Of a DNA stretch of 64,000 bases, positions 21,365-36,199 are shown one piece after another. The stretch's first letter is position 1. The number at the start of each line of letters is the position of its first letter. The stretch is from Thermosyntropha sp. (GTDB taxonomy: Bacteria; Bacillota; Syntrophomonadia; Syntrophomonadales; Syntrophomonadaceae): NCBI RefSeq assembly GCF_017656155.1, contig NZ_JACDOH010000003.1:124001-188000 (forward strand), in the 5' to 3' direction. Made by a program: the position numbers and the translations under genes. The notes beneath the pieces are model-generated. The model worked only from the letters and a program-made list of their open reading frames with translations, did not search any database and had not been told where the DNA came from.

Positions 21365-22045
21365 ATGAGCACATCCAAAAACACTTATAAAAAAATTTTT
21401 TTAATTCTCGGCATAAGTGCTTTAGTTCTAATTGCGCTCAAGTTTCTTCTGTCTGACAACGATTCCCTAAATTTTAACACCCAAAACTTCTACTCACCCG
21501 TAGAAAAAATTCCGCCCGAAGAGCGTACTGTTCCTGACCTGATAGTTCTGGGGGCTCGTAAAGAAGTAGAAAAAAAAGTAACCTATGACGCTTCCTATGT
21601 TGTCATAGATTACCCTGGTGGGGATGTTCCCCAGGATCGCGGAGCATGTACAGATGTTGTAATACGCGCTTTTCGTAATGCCGGCATTGATCTGCAGGTT
21701 CTGATACATGAAGACATGCAAAAAAATTTTGCAGAATATCCGAACAACTGGGGACTGGACAAGCCCGACCCAAATATTGACCACCGCCGTGTCCCCAACC
21801 AAATGCACTTTTTTAAAAAGCATGGCCTCGTATTAACTACTCAAGTAGAAAACCATTTGACCGAATGGCAGTGGGGAGATGTGGTGTACTTCAAATTTGA
21901 TAACGGGTTGGAACACTGTGGTATAATAAGTGACCGCAAAAATAGCAAAGGTATACCCCTGGTCATTCACAACGCTGGAATAGCAACAGAAGAAGACTGT
22001 CTAAAGCGCTGGCAGATAATAGGTCATTACCGCTATCCCCCGTAA
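21365..22045 (+). CDS. DUF1287 protein (NlpC/P60-like fold), membrane-anchored
   Basis: A 226-residue protein with an N-terminal membrane anchor (FLILGISALVLIALKFLL) and an extracytoplasmic domain. It shows a Cys-His-His arrangement expected of papain-like NlpC/P60 relatives: Cys in RGACTDV, His in LEHCGII and His in VIHNAG. DUF1287 proteins resemble YiiX-type amidases/peptidases, so cell-wall or lipid amide hydrolysis is plausible but unproven. AAAGGAG precedes the ATG. Its end overlaps the convergent PAS/GGDEF/HD-GYP gene by 13 bases. Confidence 0.85.
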   Translation: MSTSKNTYKKIFLILGISALVLIALKFLLSDNDSLNFNTQNFYSPVEKIPPEERTVPDLIVLGARKEVEKKVTYDASYVVIDYPGGDVPQDRGACTDVVIRAFRNAGIDLQVLIHEDMQKNFAEYPNNWGLDKPDPNIDHRRVPNQMHFFKKHGLVLTTQVENHLTEWQWGDVVYFKFDNGLEHCGIISDRKNSKGIPLVIHNAGIATEEDCLKRWQIIGHYRYPP

Positions 22046-24777
22046 CCTCTCTTCTTCAAAACAAATATAAACTCTTCAACCAGCCAGGGGTCAAACTGGA
22101 TACCTGCACATCTTCTAAGCTCCTCTACTGCCTTTTCATGAGACATCGCCCTACGATACGGACGGTCATTGGTCATAGCATCATAAGCATCGGCAATAGC
22201 TAAAATTCTGCATTCTAAAGGAATTTCATTGCCTTTAAGCCCTAATGGATAACCTTTTCCATTCCACCATTCATGGTGTTTTAAAATCCAGTCGGCAATA
22301 AATACCAGCTCAGGAGCGGATAAGGCTATACGATAGCCTATTTCGCTATGTCCTTTCATGATCTCATATTCCTCTTCTGTCAAAGGCGCTGGTTTAAACA
22401 AAATGGAGTCAGGTATTCCTACCTTTCCTATATCATGGAATTGAGCAAAAAGCCTTAAATCATTGATACGATTTTCCGAAAGATTAATAGCTTCTGCAAC
22501 TGCCACCACCAGATCCTGCATTCTTTCTCCATGTCCTTCAGTTATAAAATCGCGGGCTTCTAAAGCTTTAGTTAATGTCTGCACAATAGAGCTGCGAGTA
22601 CTCTGTCCACTGTGCAGTTTTTCCCGGTACATGCCGTTATCTGCCTGGCGGAACAAATCTTGCATGTTTATATTGCAAATATCCCTTACTGCATAACCAA
22701 CAGAAAGACTAAGCCACATGCTGCTGTTTCTTTCATTATAATCTTTAATATTATTTTTAAGTCGATTTACAGCTTTTTCAGTTACTTTCCGGTCAGCCCG
22801 CGGAAGAAGAACAGCAAATTCATCTCCTCCCACCCGGGCTATGACATCATCTTTGCGAAAAGAAGACTTTAATACTTCAGCAGCAGACTTAAGTAAAAGG
22901 TCTCCCTTATCATGACCTAAAGTGTCATTTACCAGTTTCAGTCCATCTACATCACACATTATAAGTCCTACCGGCACACAGCCACTGCTTTCCATAAGCC
23001 GCATTTGCTCCTCAAAATAAAAGCGGTTGTAAAGACCGGTGAGCGCATCATGACAACTCAAATAAGTAAGCTTTTCCTCAGCCTTTTTGCGCTCCGTAAT
23101 ATCTCTTCCCACTGACTGATAGCCTATAAGTTTCGCCCATTTATTAAATAAAGCCCGGTGAGTCCACTGCTGCCAGCGTATCTCTCCATCCGGCATTTCT
23201 ACCCTGCTTTCAATATTGCACACCGATTTCATCAGATTAAGCACTTTAAGCGAATCAGCCACATATCCCCTGTCAGCTTCATATACCAGATCCCGAAACT
23301 TCATGCCGCGGAGTTTTTCCCGGCTTTGCCGGTAATAACGGCAAAATGCCTCATTCACAAAATCTAGATGACCTTCTGCATCAAGTCTCATTATAAGCTC
23401 CGTCTGATCTTCCACTATCGCTCTATATTTTGCTTCGCTCAGTTCCAACTCTTTTAATGCCCTTTTAGTTTCTGTTATATCTTCTGCCAAAACCATGCTC
23501 CCGCCAATGTTCCCTTCTTCGTCTATTATAGGAGCTGCATTCATTTTTAAAATTATCTTCCTGCCGTCTTTGTGTATAAAAGGGATTTCATAACTGCTGT
23601 CTTTGCCCTGTTTTATACATTTATCCAGTTCTGCTGCTGCCTGAACATGATAACCGGGTGCCACAAGTTCAAGTAAATACCTTCCTAAAACTTCCTCAAA
23701 AGAGTAGCCTATAACCTCGGTTGAACGCTTGTTTATAAAGGTAATCCTTCCTTCTATGTCACAAGTAAAAAAAAGTTCATTCATATTGTCAATAAGGGTA
23801 TTAAGATAGTTAACCTGCTTTTTTAAATTTTTTTCACTCCTCAATAAAGCTTCTTCTGCCTTTTTGCGTTCGGTAACATTGCGCAATATACCTCTAAACC
23901 CTACAATTTTATCTGATTCTAATATAGGAAGCACTGTGCTTTCTACATAAAGCCTGGTTCCATCCTTCCTTATAACTTCCCAGCTCAACTCCCTGAGCCG
24001 TTTACCTGTTCGGTAAACCTGATTAAATTCCTTTAAAACTTTTTTCCCATTCTCCTCATCCATTACTTTGCGGAAATTTATGCCGGTAAATTCCTGTCTG
24101 GTATATCCTATATTTTGCAGAAGAAAATCATTGAAATAAGTGAAGTTTCCTTTCAAATCCACTTCAAAATAACCGTCTTCTATGCTTTCTACAATGTAAC
24201 GATATTTTTCTTCACTTTCGCGCAGAAGCTTTTCTGCCTTTTTCTGTTCAGTAATATCCCTTATAGTCTCTATCGCTCCGATAATGCTTTTTTTATGGTC
24301 TAAAAGCAGAGAAGCCTTACATGACAAGTATGCACCTCCAGTTTTAAGCTGGGGAGAAAAAATCTCCTCAAACAAAACTTCGTTATAGCCATATCTTCCT
24401 TTATGTAAGGCCAGATCAATAAGCATAGGCTTTCTTTTACCGTAAAAAGGCACAGCATACTCATAGTTGCCTTTTCCCAGTATTTCTCCTGCTTTTATGC
24501 CGGTCAACTCCTCCATCGCACGGTTCCACATAGTTACATTTCCTTTAGCATCAATGACAAAAGTAGGATCGGGCAAAAAATCTAATATCTTTTCCAGCCT
24601 GTAATGCGCATCAGCTAAAGCTTCCCGATTTTTTTCTGCTTCCTCCAACTGTTTGCGCAGTTCCTCCTCGACAGCCATGAGCTGCTCATTAGCAGCTATT
24701 AATTCCTGCTGTATTTGATAAAACAGAATATAATCTTCAGAAAAAGGTAATCCTGTTTCTTTATCACGGCTGGACAA
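22033..24777 (-). CDS. PAS-rich diguanylate cyclase/phosphodiesterase (GGDEF + HD-GYP)
   Basis: A 914-residue cytoplasmic signalling protein: N-terminal coiled coil (~20-60) and four PAS domains (~62-178, 188-305, 318-440, 448-565). The GGDEF domain has an intact GGDEF motif (650-654) and an inhibitory RxxD I-site (641-644). The HD-GYP domain has HD (781-782) and HHEWWNGKGYP (834-844), both complete. It can in principle both make and degrade cyclic-di-GMP in response to cues sensed by the PAS domains. No transmembrane segment is seen. TTG start with GGAGGTG 9-10 nt upstream; monocistronic and convergent with the DUF1287 gene. Confidence 0.95.
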   Translation of the reverse strand: MSSRDKETGLPFSEDYILFYQIQQELIAANEQLMAVEEELRKQLEEAEKNREALADAHYRLEKILDFLPDPTFVIDAKGNVTMWNRAMEELTGIKAGEILGKGNYEYAVPFYGKRKPMLIDLALHKGRYGYNEVLFEEIFSPQLKTGGAYLSCKASLLLDHKKSIIGAIETIRDITEQKKAEKLLRESEEKYRYIVESIEDGYFEVDLKGNFTYFNDFLLQNIGYTRQEFTGINFRKVMDEENGKKVLKEFNQVYRTGKRLRELSWEVIRKDGTRLYVESTVLPILESDKIVGFRGILRNVTERKKAEEALLRSEKNLKKQVNYLNTLIDNMNELFFTCDIEGRITFINKRSTEVIGYSFEEVLGRYLLELVAPGYHVQAAAELDKCIKQGKDSSYEIPFIHKDGRKIILKMNAAPIIDEEGNIGGSMVLAEDITETKRALKELELSEAKYRAIVEDQTELIMRLDAEGHLDFVNEAFCRYYRQSREKLRGMKFRDLVYEADRGYVADSLKVLNLMKSVCNIESRVEMPDGEIRWQQWTHRALFNKWAKLIGYQSVGRDITERKKAEEKLTYLSCHDALTGLYNRFYFEEQMRLMESSGCVPVGLIMCDVDGLKLVNDTLGHDKGDLLLKSAAEVLKSSFRKDDVIARVGGDEFAVLLPRADRKVTEKAVNRLKNNIKDYNERNSSMWLSLSVGYAVRDICNINMQDLFRQADNGMYREKLHSGQSTRSSIVQTLTKALEARDFITEGHGERMQDLVVAVAEAINLSENRINDLRLFAQFHDIGKVGIPDSILFKPAPLTEEEYEIMKGHSEIGYRIALSAPELVFIADWILKHHEWWNGKGYPLGLKGNEIPLECRILAIADAYDAMTNDRPYRRAMSHEKAVEELRRCAGIQFDPWLVEEFIFVLKKRGYGG

Positions 24778-24983
24778 TTCTGCGGCACCTCCAATTATAC
24801 TGCTACTTCCAATTTATGCGGCAAAATCCCTTTTATGTATTTTCCATACACAATGAAAAATCCCTGCCTTCATTTCAATATAATGGAAAATATATCAAGT
24901 AAACTTTTTTATTTTTCTTGAGCTGTACTGAACATATGTTTATACTTATCTTAGATTATCTTTTCGAAAAGGAATGTCGTCTT

Positions 24984-25412
24984 ATGAAAATAGAAACAGT
25001 AGATTTACACGGTTTAAGTATAAGTGAAGCTTTAGAAAAGGTAGAAAAAAATTTAAACTGGTGCATAAAAAACGGAGTAGTAGTCCTCGACATCAATCAC
25101 GGAAAAGGATACCACAGCAGCCGCAATTTTTCGGTTGTAAAGAAAGAAGTCCGCAAAATGCTTAAAGAAAACGACTTCCTGCGTGAAAATAGCTATATTG
25201 TAATCTATGGAGAATCCGACCTGCCGGTTGCCCTTACTTTTGATGAAGGACATACCCTGGTAGTAGCAAAGGGCTTTGAAAATAAGTATATCGGGGGACA
25301 AAAAAAAGTAGAAAAAAACCTGGCTGTATTTTCGAAAGAGGGCATGAAAAAGCGGAAAGCGCAAAAACGAATTAATGCCCAAAAAAGATCATCGCGCAGC
25401 TGGAAATATTAA
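24984..25412 (+). CDS. Smr-domain protein
   Basis: About 142 residues. The N-terminal ~85 residues are a Smr (MutS2 C-terminal-like) domain: VDLHGLSISEALEKVEKNL followed by INHGKGYHS. A basic tail ends KKRKAQKRINAQKRSS. Smr domains are nicking endonucleases or RNA-binding modules; the basic tail would favour nucleic acid binding. Start placed at ATG 24984 (AAAGGA 10 nt upstream); an earlier in-frame ATG at 24918 has no ribosome binding site and adds non-homologous residues. First of three co-oriented genes. Confidence 0.82.
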   Translation: MKIETVDLHGLSISEALEKVEKNLNWCIKNGVVVLDINHGKGYHSSRNFSVVKKEVRKMLKENDFLRENSYIVIYGESDLPVALTFDEGHTLVVAKGFENKYIGGQKKVEKNLAVFSKEGMKKRKAQKRINAQKRSSRSWKY

Positions 25413-25440
25413 AATATACATCTTTTGGGGGGATTAGACC

Positions 25441-26319
25441 GTGTTAGAACACATAGTAGATAATATTTACCAGGTATCACCGGGCAAGAACACCATTTTT
25501 CCGTATTCTTTTTGTTTTTACATTGATGATGAAATCAAGACTTTAATTGATACCCCTATTTTCCCGGATTTCGTCAAACATTTGGAAGGCAGGAAAGTAG
25601 ATCGTATTATTAATACACATTTTCACCGCGACCACTGCGGGAGCAATTATATCTTCCCTGAAGCCGAAATTTTTGCTCATGCTGAAGATATACCTCCCAT
25701 GCAGTCTATTGAAAGCTTTTCCCTTTATTATGGTTTTGAAAAATACGGAGGAAGCGAAATTGCTGCTGCCCTTTTGCCGAAAATAAACTGGCAGCCTTCT
25801 CATATAAATGGAGAGCTTAAAGAAGGGGAAATTATAAGCTCAGGGAAAATAAACCTTAAAGTAATACATACCCCGGGACATACCCCGGGACACTGTGTCC
25901 TGTTCTGGGAGGAAAAAGGCCTGTTATTTGCCGGAGATATAGACTTAACCAGTTTTGGTCCATGGTACGGCAATGATGTAAGTGATATAGACCTTACCAT
26001 TAAGTCAATTGAAAAAATTATAGACCTGAAACCTGAAATTATCCTTTCTGGCCACCGGGGAACAATAAAGGAAAATACTGAAAAAGAACTAAAAAAATAT
26101 CTTGATAAAATATATCTTAAAGAAGAAAGAATTCTCAAAGCCTTAGATACTCCCAAAACCCTGGAAGAGCTAATCGAACTTAAGATAGTATATGGGCGTT
26201 TTAAAAAACCAGAAAACCTCTACGCATTCTTTGAAAAAGTTTCCCTTTTAAATCACCTTAAAAGGCTTATTAAGCTGAATCTGGTAACATACCATGAAGG
26301 GAAATATCATAAAGCTTAA
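25441..26319 (+). CDS. Metallo-beta-lactamase-fold hydrolase
   Basis: A 292-residue MBL-fold enzyme with the zinc ligands in THFHRDHCGSN (HxHxDH, ~60), HTPGHTPGHCVLF (~142-150), FAGDIDL and SGHRG. A C-terminal helical region (~205-290) resembles the winged-helix tail of LACTB2/YflN-like hydrolases. GTG start with GGGGGG upstream. Reaction probably hydrolysis of a thioester, lactone or nuclease substrate; not resolvable here. Confidence 0.88.
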   Translation: MLEHIVDNIYQVSPGKNTIFPYSFCFYIDDEIKTLIDTPIFPDFVKHLEGRKVDRIINTHFHRDHCGSNYIFPEAEIFAHAEDIPPMQSIESFSLYYGFEKYGGSEIAAALLPKINWQPSHINGELKEGEIISSGKINLKVIHTPGHTPGHCVLFWEEKGLLFAGDIDLTSFGPWYGNDVSDIDLTIKSIEKIIDLKPEIILSGHRGTIKENTEKELKKYLDKIYLKEERILKALDTPKTLEELIELKIVYGRFKKPENLYAFFEKVSLLNHLKRLIKLNLVTYHEGKYHKA

Positions 26320-26334
26320 AAGGAGCTGATAAAA

Positions 26335-26487
26335 ATGGCACATCGCTGTGAAAACTGCAAAATCAGACAAAAAGCAGAAAAAAATCCGGACTCCATTTTA
26401 AGCCGCATCTGGCGCTGGCATACTAAATGGTGCCCGGGATATAAAAGCTACCAGGCAGAACTCAAAAAGAAAGGCCAGCTTTCTTAA
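26335..26487 (+). CDS. Conserved-looking 50-residue Cys protein
   Basis: Too short for most gene callers but well supported: AAAAGGAGCTGA lies just upstream of the ATG, 15 nt after the MBL-fold gene. The protein begins MAHRCENCKIRQKAEKNP, has the tryptophan-rich middle RIWRWHTKWCPGYKSYQ and ends in a basic tail. A CxxC plus a third Cys in WCPG could bind a metal. I have an impression that similar small proteins occur elsewhere in anaerobes but cannot name a family. Its 3' end overlaps the convergent trpA end by 26 bases. Confidence 0.7.
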   Translation: MAHRCENCKIRQKAEKNPDSILSRIWRWHTKWCPGYKSYQAELKKKGQLS

Positions 26488-27253
26488 AATTCCTTATTGT
26501 TCTCTCAATTTCTCCTGGTAAAAGTTCAGGCTTTGCTTCATATTCTTCGATTATTGAAGCCAACAAACTGCCAATGACTACTGCATCAGCATATCCCTTA
26601 AAAACCCTGACCTGTTCAGGGGAAGATATGCCGAAACCTAAGGCTAAAGGGGAAGAGGTGCTGGACTTTACCTGCAGAAGATAATCTTTTATCTCTTCTT
26701 CCGGCAAAACCTGCATACCGGTAGTTCCCCTTACCGATACACAGTAAATGAAAGCCGGATTAAGCTTGTCGGCTTCTTTTATCCTCTCTTGCGGGCTACT
26801 GGGGGCAATCATAGGTATAACATCCAGGCCGTATTCAGTCAAACGCGTCAGCTCTTCTAAGGGGAGGTCAGGCACAATAACCGCTTCTGCTCCTGTGTGT
26901 TCTAGTGCCTGCCTAAATTCAGGTATTCCCATGTTGTAAACCGGGTTAAAATAAGTAAAAATGACTAAAGGCATACTTACTGTCTTTCGAACCTCAAAAG
27001 CAAATTCCATTCCTTCTTTAAGGCTCAACCCCTTCTCAACACATCTATGGTGGAACTTTTCAATCATTTCCCCATCAGCCAAAGGGTCGGAAAAAGGCAT
27101 TCCCAGTTCTAAAACATCACAGCCCCCTTGTTCTAATGCCTTTATACATTCTAAACAGAGCTTTTTATCCGGCAAAAACGACATTATAAAAGCTATAACC
27201 CCCATTTCCCCTGATTTTTTTAAACCATTTAACCTCTCTCGCAATTGGCTCAT
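26462..27253 (-). CDS. trpA: Tryptophan synthase alpha subunit
   Basis: 263 residues, full-length TIM barrel. The catalytic Glu lies in LELGMPFSDPLADG (~47) and the Asp in FSDPLADG (~58). IVPDLPLEE and the phosphate-binding GFGISSPEQ are present. It cleaves indole-3-glycerol phosphate to indole, which channels to TrpB. Last gene of the trp operon, 4 nt after trpB. Confidence 0.97.
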   Translation of the reverse strand: MSQLRERLNGLKKSGEMGVIAFIMSFLPDKKLCLECIKALEQGGCDVLELGMPFSDPLADGEMIEKFHHRCVEKGLSLKEGMEFAFEVRKTVSMPLVIFTYFNPVYNMGIPEFRQALEHTGAEAVIVPDLPLEELTRLTEYGLDVIPMIAPSSPQERIKEADKLNPAFIYCVSVRGTTGMQVLPEEEIKDYLLQVKSSTSSPLALGFGISSPEQVRVFKGYADAVVIGSLLASIIEEYEAKPELLPGEIERTIRNFKKAGLSF

Positions 27254-27257
27254 AACC

Positions 27258-28436
27258 CTAAACCTCCTTTAATCCGGCAACCTGTTCTACATCTTTATCT
27301 CCTCGTCCGGATAAATTTATTACAAGGCATTCTTCCTCGGAAAGCCCAGGAGCGATTTTTAAAGTATAAGCTACAGCATGGGCACTTTCTAAAGCAGGTA
27401 TTATTCCTTCCAATCTGCTCAAAAGGTGGAAGGCATATAGCGCCTCTTTATCAGAAACATTGACATAATTTACCCTTCCTGTTTCCTTCAAAAAAGCATG
27501 TTCCGGCCCTACCCCGGGATAATCAAGACCGGCTGATACTGAATGGGTCGGAGAAATCTGCCCTTTTTCATCCTGCAGAACCCGGCTTAAAGCTCCGTGC
27601 AAAACCCCTTCTTTTCCTGAAGATAATGTGGCACAGTGCTTACCCGGCTCAAGGCTTATCCCGCCGGCCTCAACACCGATAAGCTTAACAGCATCGTCTA
27701 AAAAAGGATAAAATATCCCCATCGCATTGCTTCCTCCGCCTACACACGCTAATATATAGTCCGGCATTTTGCCAGTTAATTCTTTAAACTGAGTTTTTAC
27801 TTCTTTTCCTATTACTGATTGAAAATCCCGCACCATCATGGGATAAGGATGAGGCCCGACAACTGAACCTATAACCATATGAGAACATTCAAAGCTGCGG
27901 ATAAAGTCGCGAAATGCTTCATTAGAAGCATCTTTTAAAGTTTGGCTTCCTTTTTTTACTTCTACTACTTCTGCTCCCAGCATTTTCATGCGAAAAACAT
28001 TAAGTCTTTGCCTTTCAGCATCTTTTGCTCCCATATAAACCGTGCATTTAAGACCTAAAACAGCAGCCGCAGTTGCGGTTGCTACTCCGTGCTGCCCCGC
28101 GCCAGTTTCAGCAATAAGCCTTTCCTTTCCCATATATTTGGCTAAAAGCGCCTGCCCCATCGTATTATTTATCTTATGCGACCCGGTATGGTTCAAATCT
28201 TCCCGCTTCAAAAATATCTTTGCACCTCCTAAAAAAGAGGTGAGCCTTTCAGCAAAATATAAAGGTGAAGGCCTTCCTACATAATTTTTCAGGATATCAT
28301 TAAGCTCCACATTAAATTTTTCATCTTCTTTCAGCTCAAGATAGCTTTTTTCCATCTGCTCAAGAGCGGGAATAAGGGTTTCCGGCACAAACCTTCCGCC
28401 GTATCTGCCAAAATAACCTTTTCTATCAGGATACAC
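27258..28436 (-). CDS. trpB: Tryptophan synthase beta subunit
   Basis: 392 residues. The PLP-binding Lys lies in [12 protein letters not shown] (~85), with GGGSNAMG (~230) binding the phosphate and [10 protein letters not shown] contacting the substrate. It is the canonical TrpB1 type, which pairs with TrpA. It condenses indole with serine. It overlaps trpF by 11 bases and precedes trpA by 4 nt. Confidence 0.98.
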
Positions 28437-29049
28437 ATCTATCCGCCTCCTTAACTTCTGCTATAAAACGCTTTACCTTTTCCGGGTCTTTTCCTCTCCC
28501 TGCAAATTCAACCCCGGAAGAAACATCTACAGCCATCGGCCTTATTTTTAAAACTGCTTCTTTTACATTATCCGGGGACAATCCTCCGGCCAGAATAATG
28601 CGGCTTTTATCCTTAAGATGGCTTATAAAATCCCAGTTAAAGGTTTTTCCTGTGCCTCCGGCTACCTTAAAGTCAGCAGTATCAAAAAGATATGCCCATG
28701 TTCTCCATCTTTTAAACTCATCTTCATCTACTTCCCCGCCGACTTTAAAGCACTTAATAACCGGCAGATAAATTTCTTCTGCATATTCCGGGCTTTCTTC
28801 CCCGTGCAGTTGCACCATGTCTAAAAAGGCACTCCGGGCAATATATAAAAGGTTCTCTAGCTTTTCATCAACAAATACCCCTATTTTCAGGATTTTTTCT
28901 CCTACCCTCTGGTTTATCCGGGCTGCTTCCTCTACTTCTATTCTCCTCTTAGAAGGTGCAAAAACCTCACCTATCGCCCAGGCTCCATACTTCTGGCAAA
29001 ATAAAGCCTCAGTTTCAGTTCTTATTCCGCATATCTTAACTAAAGTCAT
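28426..29049 (-). CDS. trpF: Phosphoribosylanthranilate isomerase
   Basis: 207 residues. [12 protein letters not shown] carries the catalytic Cys and is the signature of Trp[11 protein letters not shown] and [14 protein letters not shown] bind the phosphate. It performs the Amadori rearrangement in tryptophan synthesis. Its ribosome binding site GGAGAGATGAGAT contains two GAG triplets at 5-nt pitch, a short echo of the arrays at trpE and trpD. It lies 17 nt after trpC. Confidence 0.96.
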
Positions 29050-29066
29050 ATCTCATCTCTCCTGTT

Positions 29067-29831
29067 TTATCTATAAGCCAACAAAGCCTTAAGTTTATCC
29101 CCCGGAGAACCTGAGCGGACCAAACTTTCGCCGATTAAAGCCGCGTTGTATCCGTAAGTTTCAAGTAAAGCCAGCTCTTCCGGGCTTTTTATACCGCTGG
29201 CACTCGCTTTAAAATAAGAAGAAGGAATAAGTTCAGACAAAGCCAGGCTATTTTTTATATCTACCGAAAAGTCCCGCAAATTCCGGTTGTTAACCCCTAC
29301 TATCCTGACCGGCAAATCATAAATAAGCAAAGCCTCATCTTCATCATGAATTTCTAAAAAAGGTTCCAAGCCCAAATCTATTGATTTTTCGCATAAAGCT
29401 AATAAATTTGAATAATCTAAAACAGCAGCAATAAGCAAAACTAAATCTGCACCTAAAAAAAATGTTTCATAAAGCTGAACTTCATCGATAATAAAATCTT
29501 TGCGCAAAACCGGAATCTTTACCGTTTCTTTAACCTGAGGCAATAAACTGCGGCTGCCTAAAAAATACTTTTCTTCGGTGATGACCGAAACCGCAGCGGC
29601 TCCGTTCTTTTCATAAACAGAAGCAAGCTCAATCGGGTCTAAATCCTCAGCCAAAACCCCTTTAACCGGAGAGGCTTTTTTTATTTCAGCGATAACCTTT
29701 ATCTTTCCGTCTTTTTTATCAAGAAAAGAGCTTAAATCAGGTCTCTCCTTCGGTGAAACTGCACTCATATCCAGCTTTTTTTCAAGGTTTTTTATTTCCT
29801 CTTTCTTGGTCGCTATTATCTTATCGAGCAT
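29067..29831 (-). CDS. trpC: Indole-3-glycerol phosphate synthase
   Basis: 254 residues, a stand-alone TrpC TIM barrel. Catalytic residues lie in VIAEIKKASPVKG, PVLRKDFIIDE and GVNNRNLRDFSVD, with phosphate-binding SGIKSPEE. Start ATG with GGGGTGA upstream, overlapping the trpD end by 16 bases. Not fused to TrpF, which is a separate gene here. Confidence 0.97.
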   Translation of the reverse strand: MLDKIIATKKEEIKNLEKKLDMSAVSPKERPDLSSFLDKKDGKIKVIAEIKKASPVKGVLAEDLDPIELASVYEKNGAAAVSVITEEKYFLGSRSLLPQVKETVKIPVLRKDFIIDEVQLYETFFLGADLVLLIAAVLDYSNLLALCEKSIDLGLEPFLEIHDEDEALLIYDLPVRIVGVNNRNLRDFSVDIKNSLALSELIPSSYFKASASGIKSPEELALLETYGYNAALIGESLVRSGSPGDKLKALLAYR

Positions 29832-30847
29832 AAATTCACCCCATCCCGGCTTAAGGCTATCATTTCTTTAAGCTTATTCATGGCTTTTCCGGAATCGATC
29901 GCTTCATAAGCCATGCTTAAGCCTTCATTTATACTTTTTGCCTTTTCGGCTACGGTTAAGGCAGCAGCAGCATTTAAAGCTACTGCCTGACGGTAAGGGC
30001 TATATTCACCGTTTAAAACACTTAAAAATACAGCTGTATTTTTCTTTAAATCACCGCCTTTAAGCATATCAAGGGATATGGAATGAAACCCCAGCTCTAC
30101 TGCATCAACCTTGTAGCTGTAAACCAAATCATCTTTTATCTCACAAACCTTGGTTTTGCCGACCGGGCTTATCTCATCCATCCCGTTTTCCCCGTTTACT
30201 ACCATAGCCCGTTTACGCCCTAATTTTTTCAAAACTTCCGCTATTTTTGCCTGCATAGAATTATCTGCTATTCCCATTACCTGATAAGTAAGTGGGCATG
30301 GATTTAAAAGAGGCCCCAAAAAATTGAATATAGTAGGGAAGCCTAAACTGCGGCGAAGCGGTGCCACCTCTTTTAATATAGGATGGTAGCTGGGAGCAAA
30401 GAAAAAAGTTATACCGATTTCCTCCAGTATCCTTAAAGCTTCATCTTTTTTAAGATTTATATTTACCCCCAAACCTTCTAAAATATCAGCACTTCCTACC
30501 TTTCCGGTAACCGCCCGGTTGCCGTGTTTGGCAACCGGTACTCCGCAGGAAGCAACCACCAGAGCAGCAGCGGTAGAAATGTTAAAAGTAGAAAGCCCAT
30601 CTCCACCTGTTCCGCAGGTATCAATAACTTCTAAATCTGTCTCCACTTTTACGGCCTCTTCATAAATAGCCTTAACAAACCCTAAAATCTCCGCCGAACT
30701 TTCTTTTCGTGACCGCATGGCTCCTAGAAGGGCAGCGGCCTTAATATCCGGAACCTCGTTGTGTAAAAGCATCTTGGCCAGGTCATAAGCCTCTTCAGTG
30801 CTTAAAAATTCTCCTACAGTCACCTTTTTTAAATACCTTTCCAGCAT
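29816..30847 (-). CDS. trpD: Anthranilate phosphoribosyltransferase
   Basis: 343 residues. DTCGTGGDGLSTFNIST (PRPP loop), KHGNRAVTGKVGSADILEGLG and a C-terminal helical domain are diagnostic. The start was set at ATG 30847 because GGAGGAG (30857-30863) is 9 nt upstream; in-frame ATGs at 30856 and 30871 fall within or before the ribosome binding site. That site is embedded in a (G/U)AG array at 5-nt spacing (30852-30879), so translation is probably controlled together with trpE. Confidence 0.95.
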   Translation of the reverse strand: MLERYLKKVTVGEFLSTEEAYDLAKMLLHNEVPDIKAAALLGAMRSRKESSAEILGFVKAIYEEAVKVETDLEVIDTCGTGGDGLSTFNISTAAALVVASCGVPVAKHGNRAVTGKVGSADILEGLGVNINLKKDEALRILEEIGITFFFAPSYHPILKEVAPLRRSLGFPTIFNFLGPLLNPCPLTYQVMGIADNSMQAKIAEVLKKLGRKRAMVVNGENGMDEISPVGKTKVCEIKDDLVYSYKVDAVELGFHSISLDMLKGGDLKKNTAVFLSVLNGEYSPYRQAVALNAAAALTVAEKAKSINEGLSMAYEAIDSGKAMNKLKEMIALSRDGVNLCSIR

Positions 30848-30851
30848 AATT

Positions 30852-30879
30852 CTCATCTCCTCCATTCTCATCTCGTCTC
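30852..30879 (-). promoter_or_regulatory. TRAP-like (G/U)AG array over the trpD ribosome binding site
   Basis: Read on the minus strand, GAG triplets start every five bases: GAG-AC-GAG-AT-GAG-AA-TGG-AG-GAG-AT-GAG. Five of six positions are GAG, one is TGG. The array covers the GGAGGAG Shine-Dalgarno sequence of trpD. TRAP (MtrB) binds (G/U)AG repeats separated by 2-3 nt and can block ribosome binding; that mechanism is inferred here. Confidence 0.55.
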
Positions 30880-30891
30880 ACCTGAACTTAT

Positions 30892-31506
30892 TTATACCAA
30901 GCAGCCTGCATTAGACTTCATCTTCAAACCTTCCCACTTATAAGTAAAGTCTATAAAATTTTTTATTATCTTTTTTCCTTCTGCCGTCATAATAGACTCC
31001 GGATGAAACTGAACTCCTTCTATCGGCAGATACCTGTGCCTTATCCCCATAACTTCCCCTTCTTTAGTTGAAGATACCACCATAATATCATCAGGAAGCC
31101 CTTTTTTATCAACTATCAGGGAATGATAGCGGGTAGCTGCAAATGGATTACTGAGCCCCTTGTAAATTCCTTTACCATCATGATATATCTTTGAGATTTT
31201 GCCGTGCATAATTCGCCAGTTAACTTTAACCGTTCCTCCAAAAGCATACGCAATCGCCTGATGTCCCAGACATACCCCTAAAACAGGAATCTTATCCCCC
31301 AGTTTTAAAATAATCTCGACCGATATGCCGGCATCTTGAGGCCTTCCCGGGCCGGGAGAAATTACAATTCCTCTTGGATTAAGCTCTGCTATTTCTTGAA
31401 CTGTTATCCGGTCATTTTTAAAAATTAAAGTCTCTTCCTCTGATTCTTCTAAATACTGAACCAGGTTATAAGTAAAAGAATCATAATTATCCAGAACTAG
31501 AATCAT
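30892..31506 (-). CDS. trpG: Anthranilate synthase glutamine amidotransferase subunit
   Basis: 204 residues, class I GATase: DNYDSFTYNLVQYL at the N-terminus, ISPGPGRPQDAG, the nucleophile in VLGVCLGHQ and the His/Glu pair in VQFHPESI. It supplies ammonia to TrpE. The ATG lies 1 nt after the trpE stop, so the two subunits are coupled. The ribosome binding site is a GAG-rich GGAGCGGAGGAGGAGGG inside the 3' end of trpE. Confidence 0.97.
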   Translation of the reverse strand: MILVLDNYDSFTYNLVQYLEESEEETLIFKNDRITVQEIAELNPRGIVISPGPGRPQDAGISVEIILKLGDKIPVLGVCLGHQAIAYAFGGTVKVNWRIMHGKISKIYHDGKGIYKGLSNPFAATRYHSLIVDKKGLPDDIMVVSSTKEGEVMGIRHRYLPIEGVQFHPESIMTAEGKKIIKNFIDFTYKWEGLKMKSNAGCLV

Positions 31507-31507
31507 T

Positions 31508-32989
31508 TTAACCCTCCTCCTCCGCTCCTTTTATAGCCTCAATTAAGGCTTTAGCCTTATTTATCGTTTCCTCGTACTCCTTCTCTGGAACTGAGCCTTC
31601 AACTATTCCGGCTCCGCTCTGGAGCAAATAAATTCCATCTTTATACCACATCGCCCTTATGGTTATGCAGGAATCTAAAATCTGATTAAAACCTATATAA
31701 CCGACTGAACCTCCATAAAAACCCCGATTTGCACCTTCCAGCTCGCTTATTATCTCCATGGCTCTTTTCTTGGGAGCACCAGTTAAAGTTCCGGCTGGAA
31801 AACAGGCAGCAAAGGCTTCGATAACATCAATTCCCGGTTTTAAAACTCCTTCCACAGTTGAAACTATATGCATTACATGAGAATAGATCTCAGGGTAAAA
31901 GAATTCCTTGACCTTAACAGTTCCAGGAAGGCTAACCTTCCCGACATCATTGCGGCTTAAATCTACCAGCATCAGATGTTCTGCCCGTTCTTTCTCATCT
32001 TCCAAAAGTAGCAAATACTCTTCTTTTGTCCCCCCCTGGTGAGTAACTTTGCGGGTTCCGGCAATAGGCCTGGTTCTTAAAACCCCATTTTCCACTTTAA
32101 CCATCATCTCCGGTGAAGCCCCCAAAAGTACACCGTGCGGGAGATTAAGATAAAACATATAGGGAGAAGGATTTATCTGTCGCAGTCTTTTATAAACCTC
32201 AATTGGAGGGGCTGTGCTTTTTTTATAAAGCCTTCGCGACAAAACTACCTGAAAAATATCCCCGGTATTGATATATTTTTTAGCCTTCTCTACCATTTGA
32301 CAAAAGCTTTCTTTATCGATGTCACTTTCAAATTCGCTTAGATCCCTTTCTTTCAAAACCGGCTTTCCTAATTCTGTGCTTTCTTCTCTGGAAGATAAAA
32401 TTGAAAATAAAAGATAGTCCAATTCTTCATATACCTTCTCAACTTCATGAACAGATTTAAGCCACAAAAAAACGGTTACCCTATTTTCATACCGGTCATG
32501 GACAACAACCTTTCCCGGCATGAAAAAATACCCTTCTTTTCCATCAAGGGATACAGGCTCTAATTCCTGCATAAAAAGACCTGACTCATAAGAAAAGTAG
32601 CCAATAATTCCTCCACAGAAAAAGGGAAAATCAGGCGAAAAAACCTTTATGGAATTTAAAAAATTCCTGATTATCCTTATTCCACATCTTTTTTTTAAAG
32701 AAGGATTCAATATGTGCATATCATGAAAAGCTAAAACAGAAAAGCGGTTATTATCCCGACCGCTCATGCTTTCCAGAAGACAGCTCGGAGGGGAAGGATT
32801 AAGGCTTTCATAAAAAGAAAGCAGGCTGAAATTTTTAACTTCTGTTGAAGCATAAACTGGAACATAATCGTAGATTTCAAAAAGATTTCTGATTTCATCA
32901 GGGGAAAAAGCAGCTTTCACCCCCGATAAAGGCAAATAAAAACCAGCATGAACCGACATGCTGGCAGTAAAATTACCATCCCGGCTCAT
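31508..32989 (-). CDS. trpE: Anthranilate synthase component I
   Basis: 493 residues of the chorismate-binding family. The C-terminal catalytic half shows IFQVVLSRR, RTRPIAGTR, LMLVDLSRND and PAGTLTGAPKKRAMEII. The N-terminal half contains a LLESMSGRDNNR segment near the tryptophan feedback site (LLES motif). First gene of trpEGDCFBA. The start ATG lies within a (G/U)AG repeat array; the Shine-Dalgarno GAGGAGAG is itself part of it, so tryptophan-dependent translational repression is likely. Confidence 0.97.
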   Translation of the reverse strand: MSRDGNFTASMSVHAGFYLPLSGVKAAFSPDEIRNLFEIYDYVPVYASTEVKNFSLLSFYESLNPSPPSCLLESMSGRDNNRFSVLAFHDMHILNPSLKKRCGIRIIRNFLNSIKVFSPDFPFFCGGIIGYFSYESGLFMQELEPVSLDGKEGYFFMPGKVVVHDRYENRVTVFLWLKSVHEVEKVYEELDYLLFSILSSREESTELGKPVLKERDLSEFESDIDKESFCQMVEKAKKYINTGDIFQVVLSRRLYKKSTAPPIEVYKRLRQINPSPYMFYLNLPHGVLLGASPEMMVKVENGVLRTRPIAGTRKVTHQGGTKEEYLLLLEDEKERAEHLMLVDLSRNDVGKVSLPGTVKVKEFFYPEIYSHVMHIVSTVEGVLKPGIDVIEAFAACFPAGTLTGAPKKRAMEIISELEGANRGFYGGSVGYIGFNQILDSCITIRAMWYKDGIYLLQSGAGIVEGSVPEKEYEETINKAKALIEAIKGAEEEG

Positions 32990-33031
32990 CTCTTCAATCT
33001 CTCCTCATCTAATTTAATCTAATCTCATCTC
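32985..33031 (-). promoter_or_regulatory. TRAP-like (G/U)AG repeat array over the trpE leader, SD and start codon
   Basis: On the minus strand the leader reads GAG-AT-GAG-AT-TAG-AT-TAA-AT-TAG-AT-GAG-GA-GAG, then TGA, then GAG-AT-GAG. Seven triplets begin at exactly 5-nt intervals (33031, 33026, 33021, 33016, 33011, 33006, 33001). A degenerate UGA position follows, then two more GAGs, the last pair straddling the ATG. Eight of ten are perfect (G/U)AG. Bacillus TRAP binds 9-11 such repeats when charged with tryptophan. No terminator hairpin is visible in the short leader, so blocking of ribosome binding is the expected mode. Confidence 0.75.
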
Positions 33032-33058
33032 AAAAAGTTAGATATTCAATTTTTATTC

Positions 33059-33087
33059 ATTAAAAAACAAATTCATGATTTTGTCAA
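33059..33087 (-). promoter_or_regulatory. Sigma-A-type promoter of the trp operon
   Basis: On the minus strand a perfect -35 TTGACA (33082-33087) and a -10 TTTAAT (33059-33064) are separated by 17 nt. Transcription would start near 33052, giving a leader of only ~63 nt that runs straight into the (G/U)AG array. Confidence 0.7.
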
Positions 33088-33103
33088 GGACTTTTATAAT
33101 CCA

Positions 33104-33292
33104 TCAAATAAATTTATTTCTTTCTTCTTCCAATCGATTTTCCTGTATTTTTTTACCATTTATAAATGTATTAGCTGATATTTCATGACTATGCCTTACA
33201 ATATTTACATTGCCGGTTTTCTTATATTTTCTAATTATTTGCTCTTTGAATTCATTACTCCTCGCCAGTTTTTCTTCTAAAGTATTATAGGT
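33104..33292 (-). pseudogene. Transposase N-terminal helix-turn-helix remnant
   Basis: An open stretch on the minus strand with no start codon. Its beginning EEKLARSNEFKEQIIRKY, followed by KKTGNVNIVRHSHEISANT, resembles the HTH of IS3-type OrfA proteins (FKExIVxxYxxTGxxxxVARxxxISxNT). It then degenerates (FINGKKIQENRL) and stops. The fragment lies just upstream of the trp promoter and is probably an insertion scar. Similarity is by eye only. Confidence 0.45.
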
Positions 33293-33334
33293 CTAAATGC
33301 TAAAACAATTTCGCAAAACAGTCTACATAGGCTG

Positions 33335-34177
33335 CTAACTCAGGTCTTTATTGTTAAAAAAATAGACAGTCAATACCAGAAGCACCATAATATATATCAG
33401 GGTATAAAATAACATAGCCGTGCTCGGTACGGAAACAGTACCAAAAGGACCGAGCTGGCTCATTATCCCGATTTCCATAAAATCACTGATTTTAGAAACC
33501 GTCAGGCGAAAAAGAGCATCGACCGGCAGGATTAAGCTGCTTATAATTCCCATGTTAACCAGTCCTGTTTTATGAATAATGGCCCCTATCTGTTCCATCA
33601 TTCCTCCGATTATAGCCAGAGAATACAGTACAAACATGGATACACCATTAGCCATAGAGCTCATCAGGGTTGAGCCCAGAAATACCGGAGCTAAAAGACA
33701 TACAGGTATTAACATGAATATGAGTACCCCCAGAGTAACACCAGCCCACGAAACTGAGAGCCTGAAAAAATAAATGCTTAAAGCCATTACCGCACCAGCC
33801 AAAACCCCGGCATGAAGTGCTGTGGAAAAAGCATAAACCCCAAACTTACCCATTATAATTGAACTGCGTTTAATCGGTTTAGAGGCCAGAAACAGCACAG
33901 TCCCGCTTTCAACCTCATGAGAAATACTTCCAACTCCCAGCATAATAGCCAGCGTGCCGGTTAAAAAACTCGATATAAACAAACCAAAAGTCAGCAGTTC
34001 AAAACCGACCTCCTGCATAAAAAGTGCCTGCATTCCTCCTCCCGCAGGTGCATTTTTAACAAGATAATGCAAACCTACCCCATAAAAAATAAGATAAATC
34101 AAAGTAAGGATTATGCCTATATGCAAAATCTTTTTGTTTATTATTTCTCTAAATGTTAATCTGACTATATTTTTCAT
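33335..34177 (-). CDS. ABC-2 type transporter permease
   Basis: 280 residues with six hydrophobic segments. The N-terminus MKNIVRLTFREIINKKILH and the cytoplasmic motif HEVESGTVLFLASKPIKRSSIIMGK are typical of ABC-2 permeases, such as those for bacitracin-like export or multidrug efflux. Last gene of a sigma/anti-sigma/ATPase/permease operon, 20 nt after the ATPase. The substrate is unknown; envelope stress or antibiotic export is a reasonable guess. Confidence 0.9.
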   Translation of the reverse strand: MKNIVRLTFREIINKKILHIGIILTLIYLIFYGVGLHYLVKNAPAGGGMQALFMQEVGFELLTFGLFISSFLTGTLAIMLGVGSISHEVESGTVLFLASKPIKRSSIIMGKFGVYAFSTALHAGVLAGAVMALSIYFFRLSVSWAGVTLGVLIFMLIPVCLLAPVFLGSTLMSSMANGVSMFVLYSLAIIGGMMEQIGAIIHKTGLVNMGIISSLILPVDALFRLTVSKISDFMEIGIMSQLGPFGTVSVPSTAMLFYTLIYIMVLLVLTVYFFNNKDLS

Positions 34178-34197
34178 TGTTTCCCCTCCGGCCCAAC

Positions 34198-35097
34198 TTA
34201 ATCTTTTACCAAATCCAAAAATACCTCTTCTAAACTTCTGCCGTGCATTGTGGCCCTATATATACGAACTCCGCCTGCTGCCAGCCGGGAAATAATTACA
34301 GGTACTTCCTCCTCATCAGATATGCCAATGGTAAAGGTTCTGTTATCATCAAGCCCCAGCAGCTTTCCTTCCCTCTCCCATTCACTCAAGATGGCTGCAG
34401 GTACTCCTTCTGCCTTCAGGCTCAGCTGATGACTGCTTAGAACAAAATCTGAAATTTTACCACTGGCAACCAACCTGCCCTTTTTTATAAAAGCCAGATG
34501 CGTGCAGCTGGCTTCCATTTCACTTAAGAGATGACTATTAATAAAAAGGGTCGTACCAGAAGCTTTTAACTGTTCAATTATCTCCCTGACCTCTTTTCTC
34601 CCTACCGGATCAAGGGCTGAAGTAGGCTCGTCCAAAAAAATAAGCTTTGGGTCATGTAAAATTGCTGCTGCCAGTCCCAGTCTCTGCTGCATCCCCTTGG
34701 AATAATTTTTAATCTCCTCCTTCTCCCGGCCTTTCAGCCCTACTGTCTCCAAAGCCTTATCAATCGCAGCCTGCTGCCTGTGAGGAGGAATATCATAAAA
34801 CCTGGCCGATATTTTAAGTAGCTCATATCCGCTCAGCCAATCATAAAAACGGAAAAGCTCAGGTAAATACCCCGTATTCAGCCGGGATCTAGGATCAGAC
34901 ACAGGTATCCCGTTGAGCAAGGCCCTGCCGGAACTGGGCTTAACCAATCCCAGGATCATTTTTACCAGAGTGCTTTTTCCCGCCCCATTAGGCCCTAAAA
35001 GCCCAAAAACCTGCCCCTCCGCAACGGAGAGGCAGATATCATCACAGGCCAGATTATTTCCGTATCGCTTAGTAAGATTAATAGTTTCAATCAGCAT
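34198..35097 (-). CDS. ABC transporter ATP-binding protein
   Basis: 299 residues. Walker A GPNGAGKST (~35-43), signature YSKGMQQRLGLAAA (~133), Walker B LIFLDEPTSALDP and switch His (INSHLL) are all intact. The C-terminal ~75 residues form the DUF4162-like domain seen in CcmA/BcrA-type ATPases. It partners the permease downstream and lies 4 nt after the anti-sigma gene. Confidence 0.95.
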   Translation of the reverse strand: MLIETINLTKRYGNNLACDDICLSVAEGQVFGLLGPNGAGKSTLVKMILGLVKPSSGRALLNGIPVSDPRSRLNTGYLPELFRFYDWLSGYELLKISARFYDIPPHRQQAAIDKALETVGLKGREKEEIKNYSKGMQQRLGLAAAILHDPKLIFLDEPTSALDPVGRKEVREIIEQLKASGTTLFINSHLLSEMEASCTHLAFIKKGRLVASGKISDFVLSSHQLSLKAEGVPAAILSEWEREGKLLGLDDNRTFTIGISDEEEVPVIISRLAAGGVRIYRATMHGRSLEEVFLDLVKD

Positions 35098-35101
35098 CTC
35101 A

Positions 35102-36199
35102 TCACCTCATTGATTCTGCAACATTTAATAATTCATCTTTATCACAGTCAGAACCACCCAACCAGAACATAACTCCGTTATCCTGCCAGACCAGGTACTT
35201 GGTATCAGCTTCTTCCAGATAAATTGCTTCATTGCCATTTATCTTAACCACTTCATGTTCTCCCTCAAGCACAGGGACAGGCAGGGTGTTTTCCCAGTTG
35301 CTTACAGATTCCAGCTGTTTTTTCACATGATCCGGCCAGATAGGCAAAGCAATAAGCGCTTTAGCCACTTCATTCACATCAACCCCTGCCGGAACCTGAA
35401 TTTCGAGTCCCGGTCCCTGAACCAGCTCATATTTATCAAAAGATACTGTCAAAACCTCAGGTATAACAATTCTGAAGGTTTTTCCGTCAATATTTTCTGA
35501 CAGTAAATAATCACTGCCCAGGGATTTTAGTATTTTGTTTACATTTTCCACCTTTAACTTTACTTCCAGATCAGATACCTTTTCAACAGTCATATCTTTT
35601 ATCTTTTCATCGTAAGGTTCAGCAGGTAATTTAGCCTTAAAAGGCAGATTCTTAAGATCCTCTACCTTAATTTCATTTCTTTCCCATTCTCCATTAGTTT
35701 TGAAAGTACCTATACTGTCGATATCTATATTCTCGGCCTCAGTACTGTATAAGGCTTCCTCAATCTGATTCAAATCCGAATGTGTAAAGCTGACAGTAGT
35801 CATTTTCTCTACCCTAAAGATCTGCAGCAGGTTCTCTGCCATGACCTGTACAGAAGGGACAGAAAACAGGAAAGTAAAAGCCAGCACTATAGCTGCCGCT
35901 ATACCAAATCTCTTAAACTTCATCAATACCTCTCCTTTCCTTCTGGTAACGGTAGTTCGGGTAATATTCGTCCAAACCTCATCCATTCCAGTAACATCTA
36001 TATCTTGATATTGCTGACGTAAATCTTTCAAGTGTTCACAGCAAAAATCTGCAGTCTTAAGCATTTCTTCCAAACGCCGCGAACAAGCCGGACATGAGGT
36101 TAAGTGTTTTCCCAATTCAGCCTTTTCTATACTGTTCAGCTCCCCATCTATATATGCCTGTAATACTGCTCTATCCGGACACCGCATTCCTTTCAGCAT
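35102..36199 (-). CDS. Anti-sigma factor with zinc-finger domain and large extracytoplasmic domain
   Basis: About 365 residues. The N-terminal zinc-binding anti-sigma domain carries HxxxCxxC in GKHLTSCPACSRRL (~30-50). One transmembrane helix follows (GIAAAIVLAFTFLFSVPS, ~105), then a ~240-residue extracellular domain that resembles DUF4367-type sensor domains near the end (YLVWQDNGVMFWLGG). Start chosen at ATG 36199 with AGGAGG 6 nt upstream; an ATG at 36220 lacks a site. It overlaps the sigma gene by 29 bases, ensuring paired synthesis. It should hold the sigma factor inactive until an envelope signal arrives. Confidence 0.88.
   Translation of the reverse strand: MLKGMRCPDRAVLQAYIDGELNSIEKAELGKHLTSCPACSRRLEEMLKTADFCCEHLKDLRQQYQDIDVTGMDEVWTNITRTTVTRRKGEVLMKFKRFGIAAAIVLAFTFLFSVPSVQVMAENLLQIFRVEKMTTVSFTHSDLNQIEEALYSTEAENIDIDSIGTFKTNGEWERNEIKVEDLKNLPFKAKLPAEPYDEKIKDMTVEKVSDLEVKLKVENVNKILKSLGSDYLLSENIDGKTFRIVIPEVLTVSFDKYELVQGPGLEIQVPAGVDVNEVAKALIALPIWPDHVKKQLESVSNWENTLPVPVLEGEHEVVKINGNEAIYLEEADTKYLVWQDNGVMFWLGGSDCDKDELLNVAESMR

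Follow-up and report, generated by a model that had tools for sequence, protein, structure and literature searches.

A short array of (G/U)AG triplets covers the ribosome-binding site of trpD within the trpEGDCFBA operon on the minus strand of the window (the whole 64,000-nt stretch of DNA analyzed here). Judged from sequence comparison, this array is probably a second, translational operator for TRAP in the trpEGDCFBA mRNA, covering the trpDCFBA block. TRAP is an RNA-binding regulator known almost wholly from Bacillus, with one trp leader site and further sites on other genes. A search of open PMC full texts, a scope outside which most subscription papers fall, returned no report of an internal second TRAP operator.

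Organization of the Operon and Anatomy of the trpD Array

The genes run in the order trpE-trpG-trpD-trpC-trpF-trpB-trpA (Table 1). The trpG-trpD gap measures 44 nt, against −16 to +17 nt at the other junctions, and translational coupling is described as best at −4 to +3 nt, dropping 3- to 10-fold by about +40 (PMC12548453). The tblastn alignments of relatives begin mostly at about residue 9 of the longer trpD open reading frame, favoring ATG 30847-30845 as the start. The sequence GGAGGAG sits 9 nt upstream of this codon as read by eye, and further in-frame ATGs (30856, 30865, and 30871) fall within the array.

Read along the minus strand from 30879 to 30852, the array consists of GAG, GAG, GAG, TGG, GAG, and GAG separated by AC, AT, AA, AG, and AT, an exact 5-nt register with KAG in five of six slots and TGG in the other. 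Every spacer is 2 nt, within the 2-3 nt typical of TRAP sites, and the 3′ end lies 4 nt upstream of ATG 30847. The array contains the Shine-Dalgarno of trpD, in line with the overlap of Shine-Dalgarno or start that is expected of a TRAP operator, and the arrays of relatives are placed similarly. Once any NAG triplet is accepted, the register occupies seven of eight consecutive slots. Folding of the site is no better than that of shuffled sequences (z +0.70) and no structure was found, as expected of a single-strand binding site.

Table 1. Features of the trp operon in the window, in order of transcription.
Feature	Position	Strand	Basis
trpE leader array, GAG GAG TAG TAA TAG GAG GAG	32999..33031	-	Pattern search
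trpE	31508..32989	-	Best match TIGR00564, below curated cut-off
Terminator-like hairpin and T run, inside first 16 trpE codons	32942..32965	-	Hairpin calls, alignment with relatives
trpG, 1 nt after trpE	30892..31506	-	Family scan
trpG-trpD gap, 44 nt, longest of the operon, contains the array	30848..30891	-	Coordinates
Possible upstream extension of the trpD array in the same register, AAG (30889) and CAG (30884), if any NAG counts	30880..30889	-	Inference
Predicted trpD operator, GAG GAG GAG TGG GAG GAG	30852..30879	-	Sequence, genome-wide pattern count, shuffles
trpD Shine-Dalgarno GGAGGAG, within the array	30857..30863	-	Read by eye
trpD, most likely start ATG 30847	29816..30847	-	TIGR01245 over cut-off; tblastn of relatives
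trpC, 16-nt overlap with trpD	29067..29831	-	Family scan
trpF; GAGATGAG at 29059-29052 is at background level	28426..29049	-	Family scan
trpB, 11-nt overlap with trpF	27258..28436	-	Gene order, BLAST matches among relatives
trpA, 4 nt after trpB	26462..27253	-	Gene order, BLAST matches among relatives

How unusual is such a register? A pattern of six KAG slots in which one mismatch is allowed matches three times in the window, once at the trpD site and twice in the trpE leader, whereas 100 shuffles average 0.01 matches. Across the 2,114,197-base genome the six-slot pattern matches these two places only (three matches). The reversed pattern has no match in the whole genome, an imperfect control because GAG is the same read backwards. 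A five-slot version adds two more places, and its reversed control returns 1 and 3 matches, so five slots lie near noise and six do not; three slots alone occur at chance level (5 found versus 3.68 expected). The initial annotation had described five GAG and one TGG at exact 5-nt spacing over the trpD ribosome site, and this description holds in the sequence itself, against shuffles and in the genome-wide count.

TRAP in the Window Genome and Its Relatives

The TRAP-type regulator that the initial annotation invoked is indeed encoded by the same genome. Its gene matches PF02081 at 139.3 bits (cut-off 21.3) and is identified as MtrB by the NCBIfam equivalog NF009724 (140.6, cut-off 117). The predicted protein aligns to solved TRAP, including the stretches KLDKGE and KIRG; the RNA-contacting residues of Bacillus TRAP are Lys37, Lys56, and Arg58. 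TRAP is present in 75 of 121 relatives, one of which (G081) has two TRAP genes. An anti-TRAP partner was considered and rejected: PF15777 matches occur in 54 of 121 genomes, most of them within open frames some 300-420 aa long that we take to be DnaJ zinc fingers, and the sole match passing the cut-off has neighbors in the same frame.

Recurrence of the Register at trpD

TrpD matches were obtained in 114 of 121 genomes and exceeded the cut-off in 81. The comparison set comprises 60 trpD loci of relatives plus the window (61 in all), leaving aside split or partial copies, second copies, and some 16 genomes that are more distant. Each locus was scored by its best KAG count in six 5-nt slots, and loci with at least four of six are called array-positive. 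The choice of start was heuristic and two anchors were used, giving 28 of 47 TRAP-encoding loci with the heuristic start and 29 of 47 with the aligned start (scores 4-6), the other 18 being without the array.

Among loci from genomes lacking a TRAP match, 4/14 are array-positive (L052, L063, L067, and L069); all four are drafts, 63-88% complete, in which TRAP may be unassembled. In genomes at least 90% complete the figure is 0/7. Fisher's exact test for array with TRAP (29/47 versus 0/7) gives p 0.0027, a value that ignores kinship and is descriptive only. Among named genomes, four of 80 trpD loci are array-positive: Desulfotruncus alcoholivorax DSM 16058, Firmicutes bacterium UBA2598, Clostridia bacterium SKW257, and Gorillibacterium timonense. 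All four encode TRAP; where TRAP was searched for (60/80), the array occurs in 4/12 genomes with it and in 0/48 without.

The array-positive loci span ten family codes (f1, f2, f3, f5, f7, f9, f14, f16, f40, and f41). When the junctions of relatives are compared, as the initial annotation had proposed, the register therefore recurs rather than giving way to ordinary Shine-Dalgarno sequences. In three genomes outside the 61 loci (G078, G092, and G103), pattern matches lie 8-61 nt before trpD by coordinates. The strict chain ends within −10 to +6 nt of the aligned start in 28 of 33 array-positive loci, and the Shine-Dalgarno sequence is itself usually an in-register GAG. Slots in these loci hold 142 GAG and 19 TAG, and the spacers vary (AT, AG, AA, TT, AC, CT, and others). 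Nearly all arrays have 3-6 strict triplets, mostly 4-6, and one has 8; with any NAG counted, array-positive loci mostly fill 5-7 of 11 slots.

The array also follows the type of leader. Operons were called TRAP-led where at least four of six slots were filled in the region from −400 to +60 relative to the estimated trpE start and no T-box motif was present. In 42 loci trpE or trpG lies upstream of trpD: 24 are TRAP-led, 10 T-box-led, 3 other, and 5 cut off, and the trpD array is found in 19/24, 1/10, 2/3, and 3/5 of these, respectively. Among the other 19 loci, where neither trpE nor trpG was found upstream, 8 likewise carry the array before trpD. The window operon itself gave no evidence of T-box control (no Rfam match in 22000-36000 and no GGGTGGNACCRCG motif near the operon). 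In one relative, L085 (G051), a single operon combines a T-box motif before trpE with a TRAP-type array at trpD, an arrangement that would suggest tRNA sensing for the front of the operon and tryptophan sensing for the rear. In four loci with the order trpB-trpA-trpD-trpC (L053, L062, L067, and L068) a trpA-trpD gap of 181-425 nt holds a 5-6-slot array; in two of these loci trpB is preceded by a T-box motif.

Could the array simply be a strong, purine-rich Shine-Dalgarno sequence whose GAG register is accidental? GGAGGAG is a genuine ribosome site, and such places often have one or two GAG triplets in register (a score of 2/6 is found at 45 of the 166 ordinary Shine-Dalgarno starts taken from other genes). 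However, none of these 166 control starts reaches four of six slots, nor does any of 191 starts of trpG, trpC, trpF, trpB, and trpA in TRAP-encoding relatives (−60 to +15; both counts omit regions too near a contig end), against the 28 or 29 of 47 at trpD. The register moreover extends up to tens of nucleotides upstream of the Shine-Dalgarno sequence and is missing from nine of the ten T-box-led operons, all of which makes an accidental register unlikely.

The trpE Leader and Other Candidate Sites

The trpE leader of the window carries six strict in-register triplets, or eight with two extra GAG (32992 and 32987) that lie past a 9-nt step and flank or overlap the trpE ATG at 32989, so that the array reaches the start codon (GAGATGAG). 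A terminator-like hairpin and T run follow 24-47 nt into the trpE coding sequence. The same in-gene hairpin is found in 13 relatives (L042, L043, L044, L051, L052, L055, L060, L063, L065, L077, L079, L080, and L082). In 14 of 15 inspected leaders (the window and relatives of families f1, f2, f3, and f5) the TrpE ATG lies 21-24 nt before the hairpin and the frame is open through it, the exception being in f5; in f14, f30, and f37 the same hairpin lies upstream of the estimated trpE start. An alignment of 16 hairpins has standard pairs in 99.2% of pair cells, and two-sided (compensatory) changes number 9 cells against 2.5 in shuffles. No conserved pairing that could serve as an antiterminator was found by eye. 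The structure looks like a TRAP attenuator captured within the gene. By blocking trpE initiation, TRAP might leave the in-gene hairpin free of ribosomes; with the longer array placed over the start region just before the hairpin, TRAP probably affects both transcription and translation there.

The initial annotation had extended TRAP control to several cistrons, including a two-triplet echo at trpF and a GAG-rich site at trpG. TRAP control is the most likely reading for trpE and trpD, and the extension to trpF and trpG falls away in this genome. The two trpF triplets (GAG at 29059 and 29054) and the GAG-rich trpG site do exist, each site filling two of six slots, which is background; they look like ordinary Shine-Dalgarno sequences and were rejected as TRAP sites. 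In family f7, two relatives (L084 and L089, from G049 and G112) do have a true array before trpF, outside the −60 window used for the counts. A gene for a transporter-like membrane protein, identified by eye, is inserted there between trpC and trpF (at about L089:6850-7750), the trpF array is followed by a T-rich hairpin-like stretch, also seen by eye, and the operon has three arrays.

This f7 arrangement bears on a second alternative, that TRAP binds at trpD and acts mainly by stopping RNA polymerase at the trpG-trpD junction instead of excluding ribosomes. In B. subtilis, TRAP is described as able to terminate transcription without an attenuator hairpin (PMC3913778). In the window, by contrast, hairpin calling gave no terminator-like structure on the minus strand near 30900-30790, and the array covers the Shine-Dalgarno sequence; a principal action on polymerase is quite unlikely.

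TRAP-type arrays also stand before other genes of the relatives (L194, L196-L199, L200, L201, L203-L208, L210, and L211). Behind them are TrpP transporters, TrpB-like proteins (NF009057), another PALP enzyme, ABC_sub_bind and DctP binding proteins, thiamine-type ferredoxin oxidoreductases (suspected to be of the indolepyruvate type), and an AMP-binding ligase. The register pattern thus finds tryptophan genes, and the TRAP regulon of these relatives appears wider than that of Bacillus, with arrays linked to genes by position only.

Gene Spacing and Kinship

In the 19 TRAP-led array-positive operons the gap before trpD ranges from −19 to 406 nt (median 47), whereas in T-box-led array-negative operons it is mostly −32 to 16 nt, with one of 94 nt and one that reads as fused. 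The five TRAP-led array-negative operons include one apparent trpG-trpD fusion and one overlap, as would be expected if a coupled trpD had no need of an operator. Contrary to that expectation, L095 is TRAP-led and has a 56-nt gap without an array.

The array clusters on a tree of TrpD (58 of 61 rows, those of at least 250 aa), with at least six changes against a shuffled mean of 19.4, at least three of them forced by well-supported branches. Within the clade of the window's TrpD it occurs in 24/26 rows, and it recurs in distant families. Independent pairs relating array to leader type number one on well-supported branches and four on all branches, too few to separate the leader-type link from kinship, so that Fisher values are descriptive here as well.

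A third account, that the array is a relic of a trpD-led transcript or of an era of longer arrays and now has little effect, draws on the shortness of trpD arrays and on the 8 of 19 loci in which no trpE or trpG was found upstream and which nevertheless carry the array, so that it could have originated there. It is very unlikely: intergenic sequence beyond the array is unconserved by eye, yet the register is kept across TrpD proteins about 40-60% identical to that of the window, and the trait has undergone its changes across distant families.

Proposed Mechanism

What would a translational TRAP operator do at this position? At high tryptophan, tryptophan-loaded TRAP would occupy the short array around the trpD Shine-Dalgarno sequence and bar the ribosome from trpD. 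The gene would form the entry to a second translational block because it stands apart from trpG by its gap, whereas trpC overlaps trpD, trpB overlaps trpF, and trpA begins almost directly after trpB. Through coupling, repression at trpE would affect this block only weakly, and the trpD operator would cover it. That two cistrons of one mRNA are repressed independently, as the initial annotation had supposed, can reasonably be inferred from the arrangement. The trpD site may keep TrpE and TrpD levels in step, as that annotation also suggested, or could equally serve to set the two blocks apart. If the proposal is right, one protein represses separate translational blocks of one mRNA, and there is a reason why trpD alone among the internal genes stands behind a larger gap.

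The length of the array calls for comment. TRAP sites are described with 9-11 triplets (PMC4347634) and stable TRAP binding is stated for seven or more (PMC4027176), against five strict triplets at trpD in the window. The TRAP of this clade may accept shorter sites or gain binding from imperfect triplets; repression may be weak; or the two sites of one mRNA may cooperate. A particular form of the last, in which one 11-subunit TRAP ring holds both operators (six strict triplets at trpE and five at trpD), would loop out trpE-trpG, silence the two translation blocks in a single cooperative event, and account for how arrays of fewer than the quoted seven triplets function. It is very unlikely, and seven loci with no trpE or trpG upstream count against it, since their trpD arrays are no longer (4-6 strict triplets). 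If the trpD array is an operator, natural sites of 4-6 triplets would allow the minimum length of a TRAP operator to be tested.

Comparison with Known Systems

Many relatives control the same genes through the tRNA-sensing T-box, of which none is present in the window. The trpE leader resembles that of the B. subtilis trpEDCFBA operon, where attenuation and refolding at trpE are in play: in both, a TRAP array precedes trpE together with a terminator-like hairpin. Unlike the B. subtilis leader, the array here runs into the trpE start codon and the hairpin lies within the trpE frame. The B. subtilis trp operon has no trpG, its trpE and trpD overlap, and translational coupling is reportedly a feature of the operon.

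The B. subtilis TRAP sites at trpG, trpP, and ycbK lie outside the trp operon. At these genes TRAP is described as directly blocking the ribosome site (PMC11255114). The trpD array resembles them in having (G/U)AG triplets a few nucleotides apart over a translation start (PMC11255114, PMC4347634), and differs from them in lying inside the trp operon, at trpD, with mostly 4-6 strict triplets.
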